Part shown: piece after piece, positions 5,510 through 36,933 of the stretch
Layout: each line of letters starts with the position of its first letter
How positions within the stretch are numbered: position 1 is the first letter of the stretch
Assembly (NCBI GenBank): GCA_013334245.1
Contig: JAAXXZ010000011.1
Coordinates: 1 to 45,526 of the forward strand
Origin: Candidatus Moraniibacteriota bacterium
GTDB taxonomy: Bacteria > Patescibacteriota > Minisyncoccia > Moranbacterales > UBA1568
Direction of reading: 5' to 3'
DNA: 45,526 nt
The notes under the pieces: model-generated
Seen by the model: only the letters and a program-made list of their open reading frames with translations
Database searches by the model: none
Told to the model about the DNA's origin: nothing
Program-made: the position numbers and the translations under genes

Positions 5510-6745
5510 ATGAAAAAGAACGTGAAACACAATCGGACAAGGCCGCTCGCGGATCGGATGCGGCCGCGGACGCTCGAGGAATTCCTCGGGCAATCTTCGC
5601 TTGTCGGTGAGGGAACTTTTTTGCGCAAGGCGATCGGGAGCGATGCGGTGCCGTCAATCATATTGTGGGGTCCGCCGGGAAGCGGGAAGACGACTTTGGC
5701 GACGATCATCGCGCACGAAACGCGGGCGGAATTTTTGGCACTTTCTGCGGTAACGAGCGGTATCAAGGAATTGCGCGACGTGATCGCGGCAGCGGAGCGG
5801 TCCCGCGCCGAGGGAAAGAGGACGATACTGTTCCTCGACGAGATCCACCGATGGAACAAGTCGCAACAGGACGCGTTGTTGCCGCACGTGGAACACGGGA
5901 CCGTGACGCTTATCGGAGCGACGACCGAGAACCCGAGTTTCGAGGTCAACGCGGCGCTCTTGTCGCGGGCACGAGTGTTCATCCTGGAAAAATTGTCAGA
6001 CGAAGCGATCGAGGAGATAGTCCGGAAGGCGCTTTCCGATACCGAACGGGGATTGGGTGGCGGTGACATCGAGGTGACCGAAGAGGCGGTCGCCATCATC
6101 GTACGATTCGCCGGAGGTGATGCCCGTATGGCGCTCGGCACGCTCGAGGCGGCCGCGTCCGAATCCTCTCATATCGCGGCGGAAACGGTGAAGGAAATCC
6201 TGCAGCGGCCGAATCTTCTCTATGATAAGACCGGCGAAGAACACTACAATATCATTTCCGCCTTGCATAAGTCCCTAAGAGGAAGTGACGCTGACGCGGC
6301 GCTCTACTGGCTCGGCAGGATGCTCGAGTCGGGGGAGGACCCGCTTTACGTCGCGAGGCGGCTGGTGCGGTTCGCGTCCGAAGACATCGGCCTCGCCAAT
6401 TCGTTCGCACTGCCGCAGGCCGTCGCTGCGTATCAGACGTGTCAGTTCATCGGAATGCCGGAGTGCGAGCTTGCGCTCGCACAGGCTGTCGTCTATCTGG
6501 CGAAGTCCAAGAAATCGAACGCGCTGTATGTCGGATACGGACATGTGAAAGACGATATCCGCGAACTGCCGAACGATCCGGTTCCGCTCCATCTGCGAAA
6601 CGCGCCGACCAAGCTGATGAAGACGGTCGGGTACGGGAGGGGATACAAATACACTCCCGATTTTGAAAGTCCGGAAGACGCACGACAGGACTATTTTCCC
6701 GAACGGCTCAGGGGAAGGAAGTACCTGAAATTCGGGGAAGAATAG
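5510..6745 (+). CDS. rarA: replication-associated recombination protein A
   Basis: RPLADRMRPRTLEEFLGQ, GPPGSGKTTLATIIA, LFLDEIHRWNKSQQDALLPHVE. Confidence 0.95.
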   Translation: MKKNVKHNRTRPLADRMRPRTLEEFLGQSSLVGEGTFLRKAIGSDAVPSIILWGPPGSGKTTLATIIAHETRAEFLALSAVTSGIKELRDVIAAAERSRAEGKRTILFLDEIHRWNKSQQDALLPHVEHGTVTLIGATTENPSFEVNAALLSRARVFILEKLSDEAIEEIVRKALSDTERGLGGGDIEVTEEAVAIIVRFAGGDARMALGTLEAAASESSHIAAETVKEILQRPNLLYDKTGEEHYNIISALHKSLRGSDADAALYWLGRMLESGEDPLYVARRLVRFASEDIGLANSFALPQAVAAYQTCQFIGMPECELALAQAVVYLAKSKKSNALYVGYGHVKDDIRELPNDPVPLHLRNAPTKLMKTVGYGRGYKYTPDFESPEDARQDYFPERLRGRKYLKFGEE

Positions 6746-8021: not shown

Positions 8022-8160
8022 GTCTCCTTGTCCGAATGAGACCGGTGGTCGTTTTGATGCTGTTTCAAAAAACAGTTGACAAATTTCATTTTCGTGTGTT
8101 AGTGTTTTTACAATCAAATGTTCTCGGTTCATCTTATTTAACAATGCAAACTTCAGATAT

Positions 8161-10877: not shown

Positions 10878-11312
10878 ATGTTCATCGGTGAATACTCACA
10901 TAGCATCGATCCGAAACGGCGTCTCGCGCTGCCATCGAAGTTCCGCGGGGAGCTTGGCAGTCGGGTGGTCGTGACCCGCGGTTTGGACCGTTCGCTCTTC
11001 GTGTACCCGATGAAGGTGTGGGAGGAACTGGCGGAGAAACTCGGTACGATGCCGGTGGGCGAGGCGGGAACGCGCAGTTTCATCCGTTTGCAGCTCGCGG
11101 GTGCGACGGACGTGGAGCTTGACAGCCAGGGTCGCGTACTCATCCCGGACTATCTCAAGGAATACGCGGGACTCGGTAAGAATGTGGTCGTGGTCGGGTT
11201 GTTCAATCGTCTCGAGATCTGGGGAGAGGATACGTGGAAGACGTACAAGGCGGAGGCGGAGAAGAACACGGACGGGATCGCGGAAGAACTTGGGAAGCTC
11301 GGAGTTTACTAA
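10878..11312 (+). CDS. mraZ: transcriptional regulator MraZ
   Basis: MFIGEYSHSIDPKRRLALPSKFR; LDSQGRVLIPDYLKEYAGL. Confidence 0.95.
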   Translation: MFIGEYSHSIDPKRRLALPSKFRGELGSRVVVTRGLDRSLFVYPMKVWEELAEKLGTMPVGEAGTRSFIRLQLAGATDVELDSQGRVLIPDYLKEYAGLGKNVVVVGLFNRLEIWGEDTWKTYKAEAEKNTDGIAEELGKLGVY

Positions 11313-11395
11313 TAACTGACAACATACAACTGACAACTTACAACATTGAATGGATTTCTGGTTGTGAGTGGTGAGTTGTCGGTTGTGGGTTGAGG
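11309..11395. repeat. inverted pair of degenerate heptanucleotide arrays
   Basis: ctaataa ctgacaa catacaa ctgacaa cttacaa cattgaa ... gttgtga gtggtga gttgtcg gttgtgg gttgagg. Confidence 0.85.
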
Positions 11396-11397
11396 TT

Positions 11398-12357
11398 ATG
11401 ACGAGACACATTCCAGTGCTCCTGGACGAGGCTATCGAAGCGATGGACCTTCAAAAGGGCGACACGGCGGTGGACGCGACCCTCGGCGGCGGTGGGCATA
11501 CGAGAGCCATACTCTCGCACGTGCTCCCCGGTGGGAGGGTGGTCGCGTTCGACGCCGATGAGAGGGCGATCGGGCGTTTCCGGCGCTCCGCGGAAGCGGA
11601 TGCCGGATTGCGGGAAGCGATGGAGAAGGGATCGCTTACCGTGGTCGGGGAGAATTTTTCCCGGATCGCGGAAACGCTTCGATTTCTCGGGATAGAAACG
11701 GTGGACGCGATACTCGCGGACTTCGGGTTCTCGTCGGACCAGATCGACGATGCGGAACGAGGGTTCTCGTTCCGTGCCGACGGACCGCTCGACATGCGGC
11801 TTGACGGACGGACGGAGCGGACCGCGGCCGATATCGTGAACGGTTGGGATGACGAGGCGCTCGCGAAGCTCTTCCGTGAATACGGCGACGAGCCGAAGGC
11901 ATGGAAGATCGCGCAGGCGATCGTCGCGAGACGGGGTGAGAAGCCTTTCACCCGGACGGCGGAGCTTGCGGAGACCGTATCCGGATGCTTCTCGGACGTG
12001 GAACGCAGGAAGATGGGAATACATCCGGCGACGAAGGTGTTTCAGGCGATACGTATAGAGGTGAACGGGGAATTGTCCGCCATCGGGACGTTCCTGCGGG
12101 AGGGCATCTCCGTACTGGGCAAAGGGGGGAGGATCGCGGTCATCACGTTCCATTCCGGCGAAGACGCTCTCGTGAAGAGGATGTTCGCCGAGATGTCTCG
12201 TGGGTGTGTCTGCCCGGCCGAGTTTCCGAAGTGCGTCTGTGGGCGGAAGGCCGTCATACGGACACTCTCTCCGAAATTCATCGTTCCGAGCGCGAAAGAA
12301 ATCAGCGAAAACCCGCGGTCGCGGAGCGCGAAGCTTCGGGTCGCCGAGAAAGTTTGA
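11398..12357 (+). CDS. rsmH: 16S rRNA (cytosine1402-N4)-methyltransferase
   Basis: MTRHIPVLLDEAIEAM, VDATLGGGGHTRAIL, DFGFSSDQIDDAERGFSF, CVCGRKAVIRTLSPKFI. Confidence 0.95.
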   Translation: MTRHIPVLLDEAIEAMDLQKGDTAVDATLGGGGHTRAILSHVLPGGRVVAFDADERAIGRFRRSAEADAGLREAMEKGSLTVVGENFSRIAETLRFLGIETVDAILADFGFSSDQIDDAERGFSFRADGPLDMRLDGRTERTAADIVNGWDDEALAKLFREYGDEPKAWKIAQAIVARRGEKPFTRTAELAETVSGCFSDVERRKMGIHPATKVFQAIRIEVNGELSAIGTFLREGISVLGKGGRIAVITFHSGEDALVKRMFAEMSRGCVCPAEFPKCVCGRKAVIRTLSPKFIVPSAKEISENPRSRSAKLRVAEKV

Positions 12358-12444
12358 AATCCGACTGACAACGAATAACTGACGACTTACAACACAGGCG
12401 GGATCTCGTTCTCGATGTTGCGGGTTATCAGTTGTGAGTTGTCG
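12358..12444. repeat. second inverted pair of heptanucleotide arrays
   Basis: aatccga ctgacaa cgaataa ctgacga cttacaa ... gttgcgg gttatca gttgtga gttgtcg. Confidence 0.85.
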
Positions 12445-12480
12445 GTCAAAAAAATAAACACAAACAGGGGGCGAAACGAT

Positions 12481-12822
12481 ATGTCTAAAGATTACGGAGT
12501 TCAGAAACAGCATGGTTCACGCGGAAAGACGCGTTTTTTCGCGGGCTCGGTGCATCCCGTGGCGCTTGCAGGATTGTTCGTTTTCTTCCTGTCGAGTATT
12601 GCCTACGTGTACGCGCTCAATCTTGGAGCGGTGCAGGGGTACGAGGCGCGGAAAGTCGAATCGGATATCGCCACACTCAAGGAGGAGAACCGCAAGTTGA
12701 AGATATCGGAGGCGCAGGCCCTTTCGCTTTCGCGTATCGAGGAGGCCGCGAAGGGGAGAGAGATGGATCGGACCGCGGAGATACGGACGATCGGCGGACG
12801 CGGAGCGGTCGCTCTCCGATAG
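12481..12822 (+). CDS. FtsL-like single-TM coiled-coil protein
   Basis: One TM helix then coiled coil (ESDIATLKEENRKLKISEAQ); located between rsmH and ftsI. Confidence 0.65.
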   Translation: MSKDYGVQKQHGSRGKTRFFAGSVHPVALAGLFVFFLSSIAYVYALNLGAVQGYEARKVESDIATLKEENRKLKISEAQALSLSRIEEAAKGREMDRTAEIRTIGGRGAVALR

Positions 12823-17990: not shown

Positions 17991-18077
17991 TGCTCTTCAT
18001 TCATGTATACTGTAAATGAATGAAGAAGTCCGGAAAAGACGGTTTCCGGATTGTTGTAAGTTGTTAGTCGGAACCAT

Positions 18078-19082
18078 ATGAAACTACTTGTCACTGGCGG
18101 GGCGGGGTTTATCGGATCGAATTTCGTGCATCATGTCCTGCGGGAACACCCGGAGGACGAAGTGGTCGTGCTCGATCTCCTGACCTACGCGGGGAACCTC
18201 GAGAACCTGAAAGAGGCCGAAAGGAATCCGCGGTATCGATTCGTGAAAGGTGACATCGCCGATTCGGAAGTGGTCGACCCGCTCGTCGCTGAATGTGACG
18301 CGGTCGTGCACTTCGCGGCGGAGTCGCACGTGGACCGTTCGATCATAGAGCCGGCGGCATTCGTAAGGACGAACGTGATCGGGACGCAGGTCTTGTTGGA
18401 CGCGGCGCGAAACCATCGCGGGAAGCGGTTCCATCATGTTTCGACGGACGAGGTGTTCGGCGCGCTCGGGCCGAACGATGCGCCGTTCTCGGAGGTGACC
18501 CCGTACGATCCGCGCAGCCCGTACAGCGCGTCGAAGGCCGGTTCGGACCATCTTGTCCGCGCCTACTTCCATACCTACGGTCTGCCGGTGACGATTTCCA
18601 ACTGTTCGAACAATTACGGACCGTATCATTTTCCGGAAAAACTTATCCCGCTTTCGATCACGAACCTGTTGGAAGGGAAGAACGTGCCGGTATACGGTGA
18701 TGGAAAACAGGTCCGCGATTGGCTCCACGTGGAGGATCATTGCCGGGCGATAGACCTCGTACTTCGCAAGGGGGGGATCGGGGAGACGTATTGTGTCGGC
18801 GGCAACGGCGAACGCGAGAATATCGATATCGTACGGACGTTGCTCGACATTCTGGGACAGAGCGAGGACAGGATCGAATACGTGAAGGACCGTCCCGGGC
18901 ACGATCGTCGATATGCGATCGATTTCTCGAAAATCAGGAACGAACTCGGCTGGGAGCCGTCCGTCACGCTCGACGAGGGGCTCCGGCAGACAGTCGAATG
19001 GTTCAAGGCGCACGAGGAATGGTGGAAGGACGTGAAGAGCGGGACGTATCGGGAGTATTATGATCGTCAATATGGCGAGTGA
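18078..19082 (+). CDS. rmlB: dTDP-glucose 4,6-dehydratase
   Basis: VTGGAGFIGSNFVHHVL, HFAAESHVDRSI, YSASKAGSDHLVRAY. Confidence 0.96.
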   Translation: MKLLVTGGAGFIGSNFVHHVLREHPEDEVVVLDLLTYAGNLENLKEAERNPRYRFVKGDIADSEVVDPLVAECDAVVHFAAESHVDRSIIEPAAFVRTNVIGTQVLLDAARNHRGKRFHHVSTDEVFGALGPNDAPFSEVTPYDPRSPYSASKAGSDHLVRAYFHTYGLPVTISNCSNNYGPYHFPEKLIPLSITNLLEGKNVPVYGDGKQVRDWLHVEDHCRAIDLVLRKGGIGETYCVGGNGERENIDIVRTLLDILGQSEDRIEYVKDRPGHDRRYAIDFSKIRNELGWEPSVTLDEGLRQTVEWFKAHEEWWKDVKSGTYREYYDRQYGE

Positions 19083-22352: not shown

Positions 22353-22366
22353 GCATTCCTTCGTTT

Positions 22367-22401
22367 GATTCTTGATTCATAATTCCCAATTCTTTATTCT
22401 T
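22367..22401. repeat. heptanucleotide tandem repeat
   Basis: gattctt gattcat aattccc aattctt tattctt. Confidence 0.8.
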
Positions 22402-32146: not shown

Positions 32147-34069
32147 ATGGACCAGCGACTTATCCGAAATTTCTGCATCATCGCGCATATCGACCACGGG
32201 AAATCGACCCTGGCCGACCGGCTTATCGAATTCACGCACACGGTGGAGGACCGGAAAATGAAGGAGCAGCTGCTTGACCAGATGGACCTGGAGCGCGAGC
32301 GCGGCATCACGATCAAGCTGCAGCCAGTCCGGATGCGGTACCGGAAGCAGATAGCAGATAACAGGGAACAGGTAACGGGGAGCGGGGAGCAGATAACAGA
32401 TAACAGTGAACAGAGAACGGGAGCGAAAACGAATGACAGCGGGCAGCCGGATATGAAGGAAGTGCAGTCGGATGCCGATTACATACTGAACCTGATCGAC
32501 ACGCCCGGACATGTGGATTTCCATTACGAGGTCTCACGTTCCCTTGCCGCCGTGGAAGGGGCGGTGTTGCTCGTCGATGCGACGAAAGGCGTGCAGGCGC
32601 AGACGCTTGCGAACCTGTATCTCGCCATCGAGCAGGGGCTGGAAATCATTCCGGTCGTGAATAAGATCGATCTGCCGAACGCACAGGTGGACAAGACGAA
32701 GAAGGAGATCGTGCACATCCTCGGTTGTTCGGAAGACGATATCCTGCTCGCCTCGGGGAAGACGGGAATCGGCGTGCGCGAAATCCTGGACCGTATCGTG
32801 GAACGCGTTCCGTCTCCGAAGGGCGATGCCGGCAAACCGCTTCGCGCCCTCATTTTCGACTCCGTCTACGATACCTACAAGGGGGTCGTCGCATATGTCC
32901 GTCTGGTCGATGGGACCGTCTCCCGGGATACGTCCCTTCATATGATCGGCACCGGGGAGGGGAGTCTCGCGATCGAGGTCGGAACCTTTCATCCGCAGCT
33001 CGTGACCGCGAAGGAACTTTCGGCCGGGGATATCGGCTATATCGCGACGGGCCTGAAGGAAGTCGCCCATTGCCGCGTCGGCGATACCGTCACGGTGCGT
33101 CCGAGGGAACGAGAGAAGCTTGCCGTGGAAGCGCTGCCCGGATATCGCGAGATGAAGCCGGTCGTGTATGCGAGCTTTTATCCCGTCGAGGGTGACGAAT
33201 ACGGTCTCATGCGCGACGCACTCGACAAGCTTCGGCTCAACGATGCCGCGTTCGTGTTCGAGCCCGAATCGAACCAGGCGCTCGGTCGCGGATTCCGTTG
33301 CGGATTTCTGGGTCTCCTGCATATGGAGATCATCCAGGAACGTCTCCGGCGCGAGTTCGGCATGGAGCCGACCATCACGACCCCGTCGGTCGTGTACGAG
33401 CTGCAGCTTCGGGGAGGGGACCGCGTGCCGATGTACGCCCCTTCGGACATGCCGGACCCGGCGGGCATCGAGAAGATATTCGAACCGTACGTCGAGCTTT
33501 CCATCGTCGTGCCGAGCGAGTACCTCGGGAACGTCATGAACCTTTCCCAGTCCATCCGTGCGGAGTATAAGAATACGGAGTACATAGATGCGGAGCGCGT
33601 CCTCCTCGTCTTTCACGCCCCGCTCATGGACGTGATCGTCAACTTCCACGATGAACTCAAAAGCGCCACGGCGGGCTATGCTTCCATGAACTACGAACCG
33701 ATAGGCTATCGGGAAAGTGACGTGGTCAAGCTTGATATCCTGGTCGCCGGTGATCGTGTGGACGCGTTTTCCCGGATGATACCCAAGGCGCGCGCGTTCG
33801 ACGAGGGGAAGCGGACGACCGAGAAGCTCAAGGACGCGATTCCGCGTCAGAACTTCGCGGTAGCGATTCAGGCGACCATCGGTGGCAAAGTCATCGCCCG
33901 GTCGACGATTTCGGCGTTCCGAAAGGATGTGACCGCCAAGCTCTATGGCGGTGACTTCTCACGAAAAAAGAAGCTGCTCGAGAAGCAGAAAAAAGGGAAA
34001 AAACGCATGGAGTCCCTTGGTCGCGTTTCCATCCCGTCCGAGGCCTTTCTGGCCATCCTGAAGAAATGA
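32147..34069 (+). CDS. lepA: elongation factor 4 with a repeat-encoded insertion
   Basis: CIIAHIDHGKSTLADRLIE, ERERGITIKLQ, LIDTPGHVDFHYEVSRSL, NKIDLPNA. Confidence 0.96.
   Translation: MDQRLIRNFCIIAHIDHGKSTLADRLIEFTHTVEDRKMKEQLLDQMDLERERGITIKLQPVRMRYRKQIADNREQVTGSGEQITDNSEQRTGAKTNDSGQPDMKEVQSDADYILNLIDTPGHVDFHYEVSRSLAAVEGAVLLVDATKGVQAQTLANLYLAIEQGLEIIPVVNKIDLPNAQVDKTKKEIVHILGCSEDDILLASGKTGIGVREILDRIVERVPSPKGDAGKPLRALIFDSVYDTYKGVVAYVRLVDGTVSRDTSLHMIGTGEGSLAIEVGTFHPQLVTAKELSAGDIGYIATGLKEVAHCRVGDTVTVRPREREKLAVEALPGYREMKPVVYASFYPVEGDEYGLMRDALDKLRLNDAAFVFEPESNQALGRGFRCGFLGLLHMEIIQERLRREFGMEPTITTPSVVYELQLRGGDRVPMYAPSDMPDPAGIEKIFEPYVELSIVVPSEYLGNVMNLSQSIRAEYKNTEYIDAERVLLVFHAPLMDVIVNFHDELKSATAGYASMNYEPIGYRESDVVKLDILVAGDRVDAFSRMIPKARAFDEGKRTTEKLKDAIPRQNFAVAIQATIGGKVIARSTISAFRKDVTAKLYGGDFSRKKKLLEKQKKGKKRMESLGRVSIPSEAFLAILKK
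32348..32424 (+). repeat. 7-nt tandem array inside lepA
   Basis: cagatag cagataa cagggaa caggtaa cggggag cggggag cagataa cagataa cagtgaa cagagaa cgggagc. Confidence 0.93.
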
Positions 34070-35831: not shown

Positions 35832-36896
35832 ATGGAACAGTCGGATTCCGCATCGGAAACGGTCGTCAAAAAGAAAGGCATGTCGCGGACGATCGGGATG
35901 GTTGCGGTTTTTTTTGTCGCGATAGCCGTTGTCATCGTCGTCGGATTCCTTTCGTTGAAACGCAGTGTCGATACATTCCGCGGAAGTCGCCAGGATGCCG
36001 TCGTCGTAACGTTCGGTGAACGGGAGAGCGCGGTCGCGCTCGCCACCGAACTTCGGAAGGCCGGGATAATCCGATCCGAACTCCCGTTCCTGTATTACCT
36101 GTTCCGCGAAGACCTTCGGACGAAACTGAAAGCGGGAAACTATTCGTTGAGCGGGACCATGCCGATACGGGATATCGTCGCGAAGATCGTCCGTGGGGAG
36201 ACGGTCGAGAAGGGGATCAAGGTTACGTTTCCCGAGGGTATGACCGCGGCGGAGATGGCGGCACGTCTTGATGCGAACGGATTGCCCGGAGCGGCGTTTC
36301 TCAGTCTGGTCACGTATCCCGATGCCGCGCTTCGGGGCCGATATCCGTTTCTCGCGAGTCTTCCTGTCAGCGCGACGCTCGAGGGGTTTCTCTTCCCGGA
36401 CACGTACTTCTTCGACCCGAAGCTCGGGGCGGATGCGATCATCGCGAAAATGCTCGACGGATTCAGGGCTCGCGCGGCGCCGATGTTGTCCGGAGTGACC
36501 GTCGACAAGCGGTATGCGTCGCTCATACTCGCGAGTATCGTCGAGATGGAAGTGCGGACGGACGCGGACCGGAAAACGGTCGCGGACCTGTTTCTTCGCC
36601 GCATCGCCTCGGGCATGCCGCTTCAGAGTGACGCGACGGTGCGATATGCGCTCGGCGAGACAAAGGTGAAGCACTCGCTCGAGGATATCGCCATCGATTC
36701 CCCATACAATACGTACCAGTACAAGGGGCTTCCTCCTGGACCGATCTCGAACCCGGGTGTTTCCTCGATCGGGGCGGTTCTCGATCCTACGCCGAACCGG
36801 TATCTGTATTTTCTCAACAATCCCGATACCGGCCAGACCATATTTTCCGAGACGTTCGAAGAACATGTCGCGAACAAGGCGAAAAACGGACTTTGA
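35832..36896 (+). CDS. mltG: endolytic transglycosylase MltG (YceG-like)
   Basis: LASIVEMEVRTDADRKTVADLFLRRIASGMPLQSDATVRYAL, SPYNTYQYKGLPPGPISNPG. Confidence 0.94.
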   Translation: MEQSDSASETVVKKKGMSRTIGMVAVFFVAIAVVIVVGFLSLKRSVDTFRGSRQDAVVVTFGERESAVALATELRKAGIIRSELPFLYYLFREDLRTKLKAGNYSLSGTMPIRDIVAKIVRGETVEKGIKVTFPEGMTAAEMAARLDANGLPGAAFLSLVTYPDAALRGRYPFLASLPVSATLEGFLFPDTYFFDPKLGADAIIAKMLDGFRARAAPMLSGVTVDKRYASLILASIVEMEVRTDADRKTVADLFLRRIASGMPLQSDATVRYALGETKVKHSLEDIAIDSPYNTYQYKGLPPGPISNPGVSSIGAVLDPTPNRYLYFLNNPDTGQTIFSETFEEHVANKAKNGL

Positions 36897-36898
36897 AC

Positions 36899-36933
36899 AG
36901 TCACAAGTAGAAAAGTCAGAAGTCAAAAAGAGG
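36899..36933. repeat. approximate heptanucleotide repeat
   Basis: agtcaca agtagaa a aagtcag-aagtcaa-aaagagg; one-nt phase slip. Confidence 0.5.

Follow-up and report, generated by a model that had tools for sequence, protein, structure and literature searches.

A gene-border-oriented heptamer repeat dispersed in a genus of Moranbacteria and its probable role as an RNA stem between mraZ and rsmH

Why should a gene of the division and cell wall (dcw) operon be bracketed on both sides by short tandem arrays that face each other, and do these arrays act as RNA hairpins or mark a mobile palindromic unit? The question is raised by rsmH of a Candidatus Moranbacteria member, a tiny lake bacterium with a genome of 1.117 Mb in 34 contigs, from which we analyzed a 45,526-nt stretch of DNA (hereafter the window). 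Its rsmH is 98% identical to that of the nearest record, LaPlata-7m-b_bin-649. The features of the window are as follows.

10878..11312, + strand: mraZ (Pfam PF02381, E 2.4e-32), whose TAA stop codon (11310-11312) lies within the first heptamer, CTAATAA
11309..11344, + strand: 5' array of the mraZ-rsmH gap, CTAATAA CTGACAA CATACAA CTGACAA CTTACAA C
11361..11395, - strand: 3' array of the mraZ-rsmH gap, on the + strand GTTGTGA GTGGTGA GTTGTCG GTTGTGG GTTGAGG
11398..12357, + strand: rsmH (mraW; Pfam PF01795, E 1e-99)
12363..12394, + strand: 5' array of the rsmH-ftsL gap, CTGACAA CGAATAA CTGACGA CTTACAA, about 7 nt past the rsmH stop
12416..12447, - strand: 3' array of the rsmH-ftsL gap, on the + strand TGTTGCGGGTTATCAGTTGTGAGTTGTCGGTC
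12481..12822, + strand: small ORF in the ftsL position, named by position only, with no Pfam match
18054..18067, - strand: third heptamer array, a partnerless one of two units, 10 nt upstream of an ORF starting at 18078

As the first-pass annotation had proposed, facing arrays occupy both gaps around rsmH, the (gttgtga) units being the (ctgacaa)-type heptamer read on the opposite strand, and the mraZ stop codon does lie inside the first heptamer. The motif ACAACTNACAACTNACAAC, searched with up to 3 mismatches, has 11 matches in the window, where dinucleotide shuffles predict 0.01, and these two gaps account for 10 of the 11. The arms of the mraZ-rsmH gap (11314-11344 / 11361-11391) are 77% complementary and 16 nt apart, while those of the rsmH-ftsL gap (12363-12394 / 12416-12447) are 72% complementary and 21 nt apart. 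The first 3' array ends 2 nt before the rsmH ATG; the second is separated by 33 nt from the ATG in the ftsL position, which has its own SD-like AGGGGG. The predicted ability to fold into long imperfect hairpins is borne out by sense-strand RNA folding z scores of -6.9 for the mraZ-rsmH gap and -6.3 for the rsmH-ftsL gap, the antisense values being -3.9 and -4.4. The location inside the dcw operon also holds, and neither a promoter-like nor a terminator-like site was found at the window arrays, which have no G+C-rich hairpin followed by a U tract as in intrinsic terminators. An FtsI-type transpeptidase was likewise identified by Pfam. Rfam 15 gave 0 matches across the window.

The arrays extend throughout the genome, beyond what the first-pass annotation had seen, the rsmH gaps being two cases of a family that is nothing special to the dcw operon. 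Its unit is a degenerate heptamer, ACAAC followed by NN and commonly ACAACTN, usually present about four times per array. With one mismatch allowed, the pattern NACAACTNACAACT has 64+89 matches in the genome, compared with 3+1 for the reversed control. In stretches sampled from four genus-mates, we counted 204 arrays (3 for the reversed-sequence control), 177 of which are intergenic according to gene calls by our own ORF caller; these stretches were mostly picked for holding arrays, and the density is therefore not a genome average, while orientation is unaffected. Lags of 7 and 14 alone are enriched in non-coding DNA (44 and 30 runs, vs 0-5 at any other lag), and lag 7 is also dominant in Moranbacteria relatives. 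When units were detected in a way that favors no position, positions 4 and 5 of ACAACNN were retained in 188/188 and 187/188, with T favored at position 6 and position 7 free, conservation among detected arrays being still partly ascertained. Many arrays stand alone, and the two borders of one gap (L104) carry different heptamer families. Where arms do face each other, the loops between them are unrelated across sites, and each loop is found only once in the genome. One pair is translated in frame within miaA (L092:6247-6330), where it adds about 30 residues to MiaA in the host genome (G000); the pair is also in frame in G003, and a decayed form is present in G005.

Other repeats were also noted. 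Heptamer families of the AACAGNN, AAGTCNN, and GAATCNN types share this genome, occurring in the window (22365-22392, 32345-32425, and 36895-36930) and elsewhere (L092:1244-1320 and 5846-5877; L103:4645-4691); few are at gene borders, mostly likewise A-rich away from the gene. By eye, period-8 arrays of the ATTGTTNN type lie beside heptamers in a gap near 19015-19260 of L162 (G005) and just below 8194 in L091. Longer MITE-like repeats starting with GTCATCCCGAGCGAG or GTCATCGCGAGCGAA are found in L101 (about 8045-8130) and L128 (about 6500-6680), one of them nested between heptamer arms.

The most ordered property of the family is its orientation. Within 20 nt of a CDS end, ACAAC reads away from the CDS in 111 arrays and toward it in 3, a ratio that is 50:0 at starts and 61:3 at stops. 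The distance between an array and the start codon is mostly 7-13 nt, and common offsets at stops are -4, with the stop codon within the array, or 6-18 nt downstream. Neighboring arrays form 36 facing pairs, 0 back-to-back pairs, and 41 same-strand pairs, and facing pairs are also present in divergent gaps. Since an array at each border of a gap reads outward from its gene, the gap becomes flanked by inverted arrays and acquires a hairpin-like look. We claim this border rule for the present genus only, because array orientation varies with lineage in other Patescibacteria. For example, another Patescibacteria genome (G172; L184-L188) has four ACAACCT-type units at each site examined, in the orientation opposite to that of this genus, some of its arrays lying inside predicted genes or at their edges.

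Could such arrays be neutral microsatellites, born by heptamer slippage from chance seeds and tolerated only between genes? Some are homogeneous, such as five CTAACAA units in L103 and long CTTACAA runs in G005, and one survey found heptanucleotides to be the most frequent class of repeat in the majority of its genomes (Mrazek et al. 2007, cited by PMC4679880). However, slippage fails to explain one heptamer in scores of unrelated gaps, the 111:3 orientation, or variation mainly at two of seven positions, and we consider this origin quite improbable.

As for their persistence, arrays are found at 15/15 comparable sites in G003, a 98% relative, with one of them rearranged. At greater distance, G000 and G005 (75-80% DNA identity) have 8 array gaps in common and 9 differing, and G000 and G001 have 2 in common and 8 differing; the counts are automatic, and some of the differences stem from gene calls of unequal extent. 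Clean empty gaps exist: 2 nt in G005 (L104 site) and 22 nt in G001 (L090 site), where G000 has 169 and 164 nt, respectively. In orthologous pairs across the genus, the arms are 75-98% identical and the flanks 73-89%, conserved unit positions in the arms being partly ascertained by the search pattern. Filled and empty gaps show no evident target-site duplication, though the relatives are too diverged for such a comparison. Elsewhere in the family the heptamer is rare, most genera lacking it, and its distribution in the phylum is patchy, with the pattern in 39/380 Patescibacteria genomes. In L028, a distant Moranbacteria genome, the same rsmH-ftsL gap again holds ACAAC arrays that face each other.

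These comparisons bear on the idea that the arrays are binding sites for a nucleoid or regulatory protein, which would recognize ACAAC every 7 nt in DNA or RNA, an inverted pair then being two sites. Such a protein would fit the near-invariance of positions 4-5 beside the drift of positions 6-7, as well as the set distance and orientation relative to CDS ends, and similar binding has been suggested for the arrays of Geobacter metallireducens (PMC2700814) and Beggiatoaceae (PMC4679880). Yet arrays are roughly equal in number at stops and starts, one pair is part of the miaA reading frame, most genera of the family lack the heptamer, and many sites are unlike between genus-mates, which is odd for a fixed regulon. 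We therefore regard protein binding as rather doubtful.

Next to the widespread family stands the mraZ-rsmH gap itself, the one place where the RNA role suggested by the first-pass annotation gains support. The heptamer pair is present in this gap in G000, G003, and G005, so that the stem is kept in close relatives, and from G000 to G005 arm identity is 97%, compared with 81% for the flanks. Five relatives without the heptamer pair (L011, L032, L012, L013, and L014), in which the mraZ stop and the rsmH start are about 87-197 nt apart vs 85 nt in the window, carry instead an alternative stem that ends at the rsmH start. In these five sequences, 96.1% of the cells of the alternative stem are paired, vs 26-47% when it is slid, and 3 pairs are changed on both sides. 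The mraZ-rsmH arms form a duplex of -34.2 kcal/mol in the sense strand vs -22.2 kcal/mol in the antisense strand, sense being 10-12 kcal/mol better for both this pair and the rsmH-ftsL pair. The predicted heptamer RNA stem also pairs the AU of the rsmH AUG. Since array-less relatives have a compensated stem and the heptamer stem covers the rsmH AUG, the arrays have probably replaced an older RNA stem, the stem being kept while its sequence was exchanged. Moreover, with the mraZ stop codon in the 5' arm and the stem reaching the rsmH AUG, the predicted structure suggests that the heptamer stem may couple translation of rsmH to that of mraZ. In other Moranbacteria (L016, L018, L020, L021, L022, and L044), the mraZ-rsmH gap holds heptamer arrays of different sequence, facing or single, of the types ATCTAAT, AGTAACT, GGAAATT, and GAATCAG.

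Intercistronic RNA hairpins might likewise be under selection throughout the genome, for mRNA processing, stability, or translational coupling. This would agree with the folding of both window gaps far beyond shuffles, better in the sense strand, and with the conserved, compensated stem of the relatives. The partner arms, however, speak against it. Across 36 pairs, the duplex energy is -23.4 kcal/mol for true partners and -26.1 kcal/mol when arms are swapped between sites (P<2e-4), and with orthologues removed, the 20 independent pairs give -23.4 vs -26.4 kcal/mol (P<2e-4). Weaker pairing of true partners is seen per genome in G000 (P<2e-4) and G005 (P 0.007), with P 0.10 in G004, while G001, with 3 pairs, is uninformative. 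At the 15 co-directional sites, duplex energies show no difference between the sense and antisense strands (P 0.93), and GU is not preferred over the AC mismatch in the arms. Since true partners pair worse than swapped ones and the two strands are equal, hairpin stability is not the property that is kept genome-wide. There are also many partnerless arrays, and pairs occur in divergent gaps too. Selection on RNA hairpins is thus disfavored for the family, and we judge it unlikely.

The weakness of partner pairing may instead reflect the loss of perfect palindromes; alternatively, palindromes may have been dropped in short-read assembly. Copying of one arm onto its partner by fold-back is disfavored, since in register the variable base matches in 11% of units vs 24% expected, a count that understates pairing where RNAfold favors another register, although duplex energies over all registers go in the same direction.

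The proposal of a mobile palindromic unit is partly supported, in that a dispersed repeat is involved; copying of the palindrome as such is not supported, the loops being unrelated and without a second genome copy. We accordingly rejected a copy-paste palindrome with a conserved loop. REP/BIME sequences mobilized by the genome's Y1 (RAYT) transposase are suggested by a single Y1_Tnp gene located about 1 kb from the heptamer pair in miaA. However, this gene has its own, different REP, GTAG+AGACGCCCCGTCGGGGCGTCT, and Y1 genes do not track arrays among genus-mates: G001 and G004 are array-rich without a Y1_Tnp match, while G002 has five Y1_Tnp matches and only 3 heptamer matches. We rejected this origin, which is barely conceivable. 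The RAYT-type gene itself (G000:C8:4714-5411; L092, L088) lies between a gatB-like gene and miaA and is flanked by GTAG-AGACGCCCCGTCGGGGCGTCT palindromes. Its CDS also contains one, and this REP has 11 genome matches at a handful of places.

A further possibility, which we give a very slim chance, is that heptamers were added repeatedly from a short template to free 3' ends at intergenic breaks, the extended ends then being joined around filler DNA. Two extended 3' ends would place ACAACTN 5'->3' away from the gene at both borders, and after their joining the loops would be unrelated and the variable bases of one arm independent of those of the other. If true, this 3'-end addition would amount to a trace of telomere-like healing in bacteria.

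How does the family compare with known repeats? Like REP, BIME, and REPIN sequences with RAYT genes, its members are dispersed intergenic imperfect palindromes with inverted pairs and variable linkers, but they have no GTAG, no conserved palindromic core, and no tie to a RAYT gene, and they have a heptamer period (PMC8266576, PMC3116915). As in MITEs, inverted repeats are terminal (36 pairs face, 0 being back-to-back), but internal sequence is unrelated between copies. Cyanobacterial STRR are heptamer repeats in tandem arrays between genes, as here. We know of no facing pairs or gene-border orientation in STRR or in other heptameric simple repeats. The latter also consist of tandem heptamers between genes (PMC4692102). 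Geobacter metallireducens is described as having 49 elements of four GGACCGG units, and class 3 paired sites of five MTYCTGA units that were read as regulator-binding (PMC2700814). Those repeats resemble ours in comprising 4-5 degenerate heptamers between or within genes, with pairs drawn as looped-back strands (class 3), and in being dispersed in one species and absent from a close relative. They belong to another phylum and differ in heptamer (MTYCTGA/GGACCGG, not ACAACNN), class 3 has just eight paired places, and the text consulted describes neither a gene-end orientation rule nor a partner-pairing test. TAACTGA direct repeats of marine Beggiatoaceae, Cyanobacteria, and Bacteroidetes have similar letters (TAACTGA / AACTGAC), 2-6 units, an intergenic location near start codons, and a patchy distribution; they are direct, with 1/170 inverted, and mostly present the sense strand toward the start (PMC4679880). 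Here, by contrast, the opposite strand faces the start, stops are about as frequent, and facing pairs are common; the unit is ACAACTN, and 50/50 start-adjacent arrays read away from the start. The present arrays are thus of the same kind as their nearest precedents, those of Geobacter and Beggiatoaceae, differing in unit, strand, location at stops, and facing pairs. With the search terms used, the literature yielded no description of comparable arrays in Patescibacteria.

We tentatively favor, as possible though short of probable, a DNA-level dispersed intergenic repeat that was seeded by an ACAAC-recognizing activity and co-opted as an RNA stem at mraZ-rsmH. The data show the family, its orientation at gene borders, the conservation of its units, the weak pairing of partners, vertical persistence, empty sites, and the older compensated stem, and from them we infer the mobilizing activity, the palindrome loss behind the weak pairing, and the coupling. 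A putative mobilizing or recombining activity would recognize ACAAC every 7 bp and seed arrays into short gaps between genes. The recognized unit positions would stay fixed, while the variable bases would drift and perfect palindromes would vanish. At mraZ-rsmH, a heptamer pair would have displaced the older RNA stem and become a stem over the rsmH start codon, which a ribosome ending mraZ, with its stop codon in the 5' arm, could open, giving translational coupling. Against this explanation, no two loops are related, which is unusual for a transposed element, and no target-site duplication was seen.

Together, these findings establish a real, ordered, genus-level repeat among dispersed heptamer arrays, which at mraZ-rsmH probably serves locally as an RNA stem. 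Patescibacteria genomes are very small, and yet this genus devotes intergenic space to an oriented seven-base repeat. The orientation rule, the weak pairing of arms, and the stem replacement at mraZ-rsmH provide concrete handles for testing how dispersed repeats arise and how they come to serve as regulatory RNA within an essential cell-division operon.
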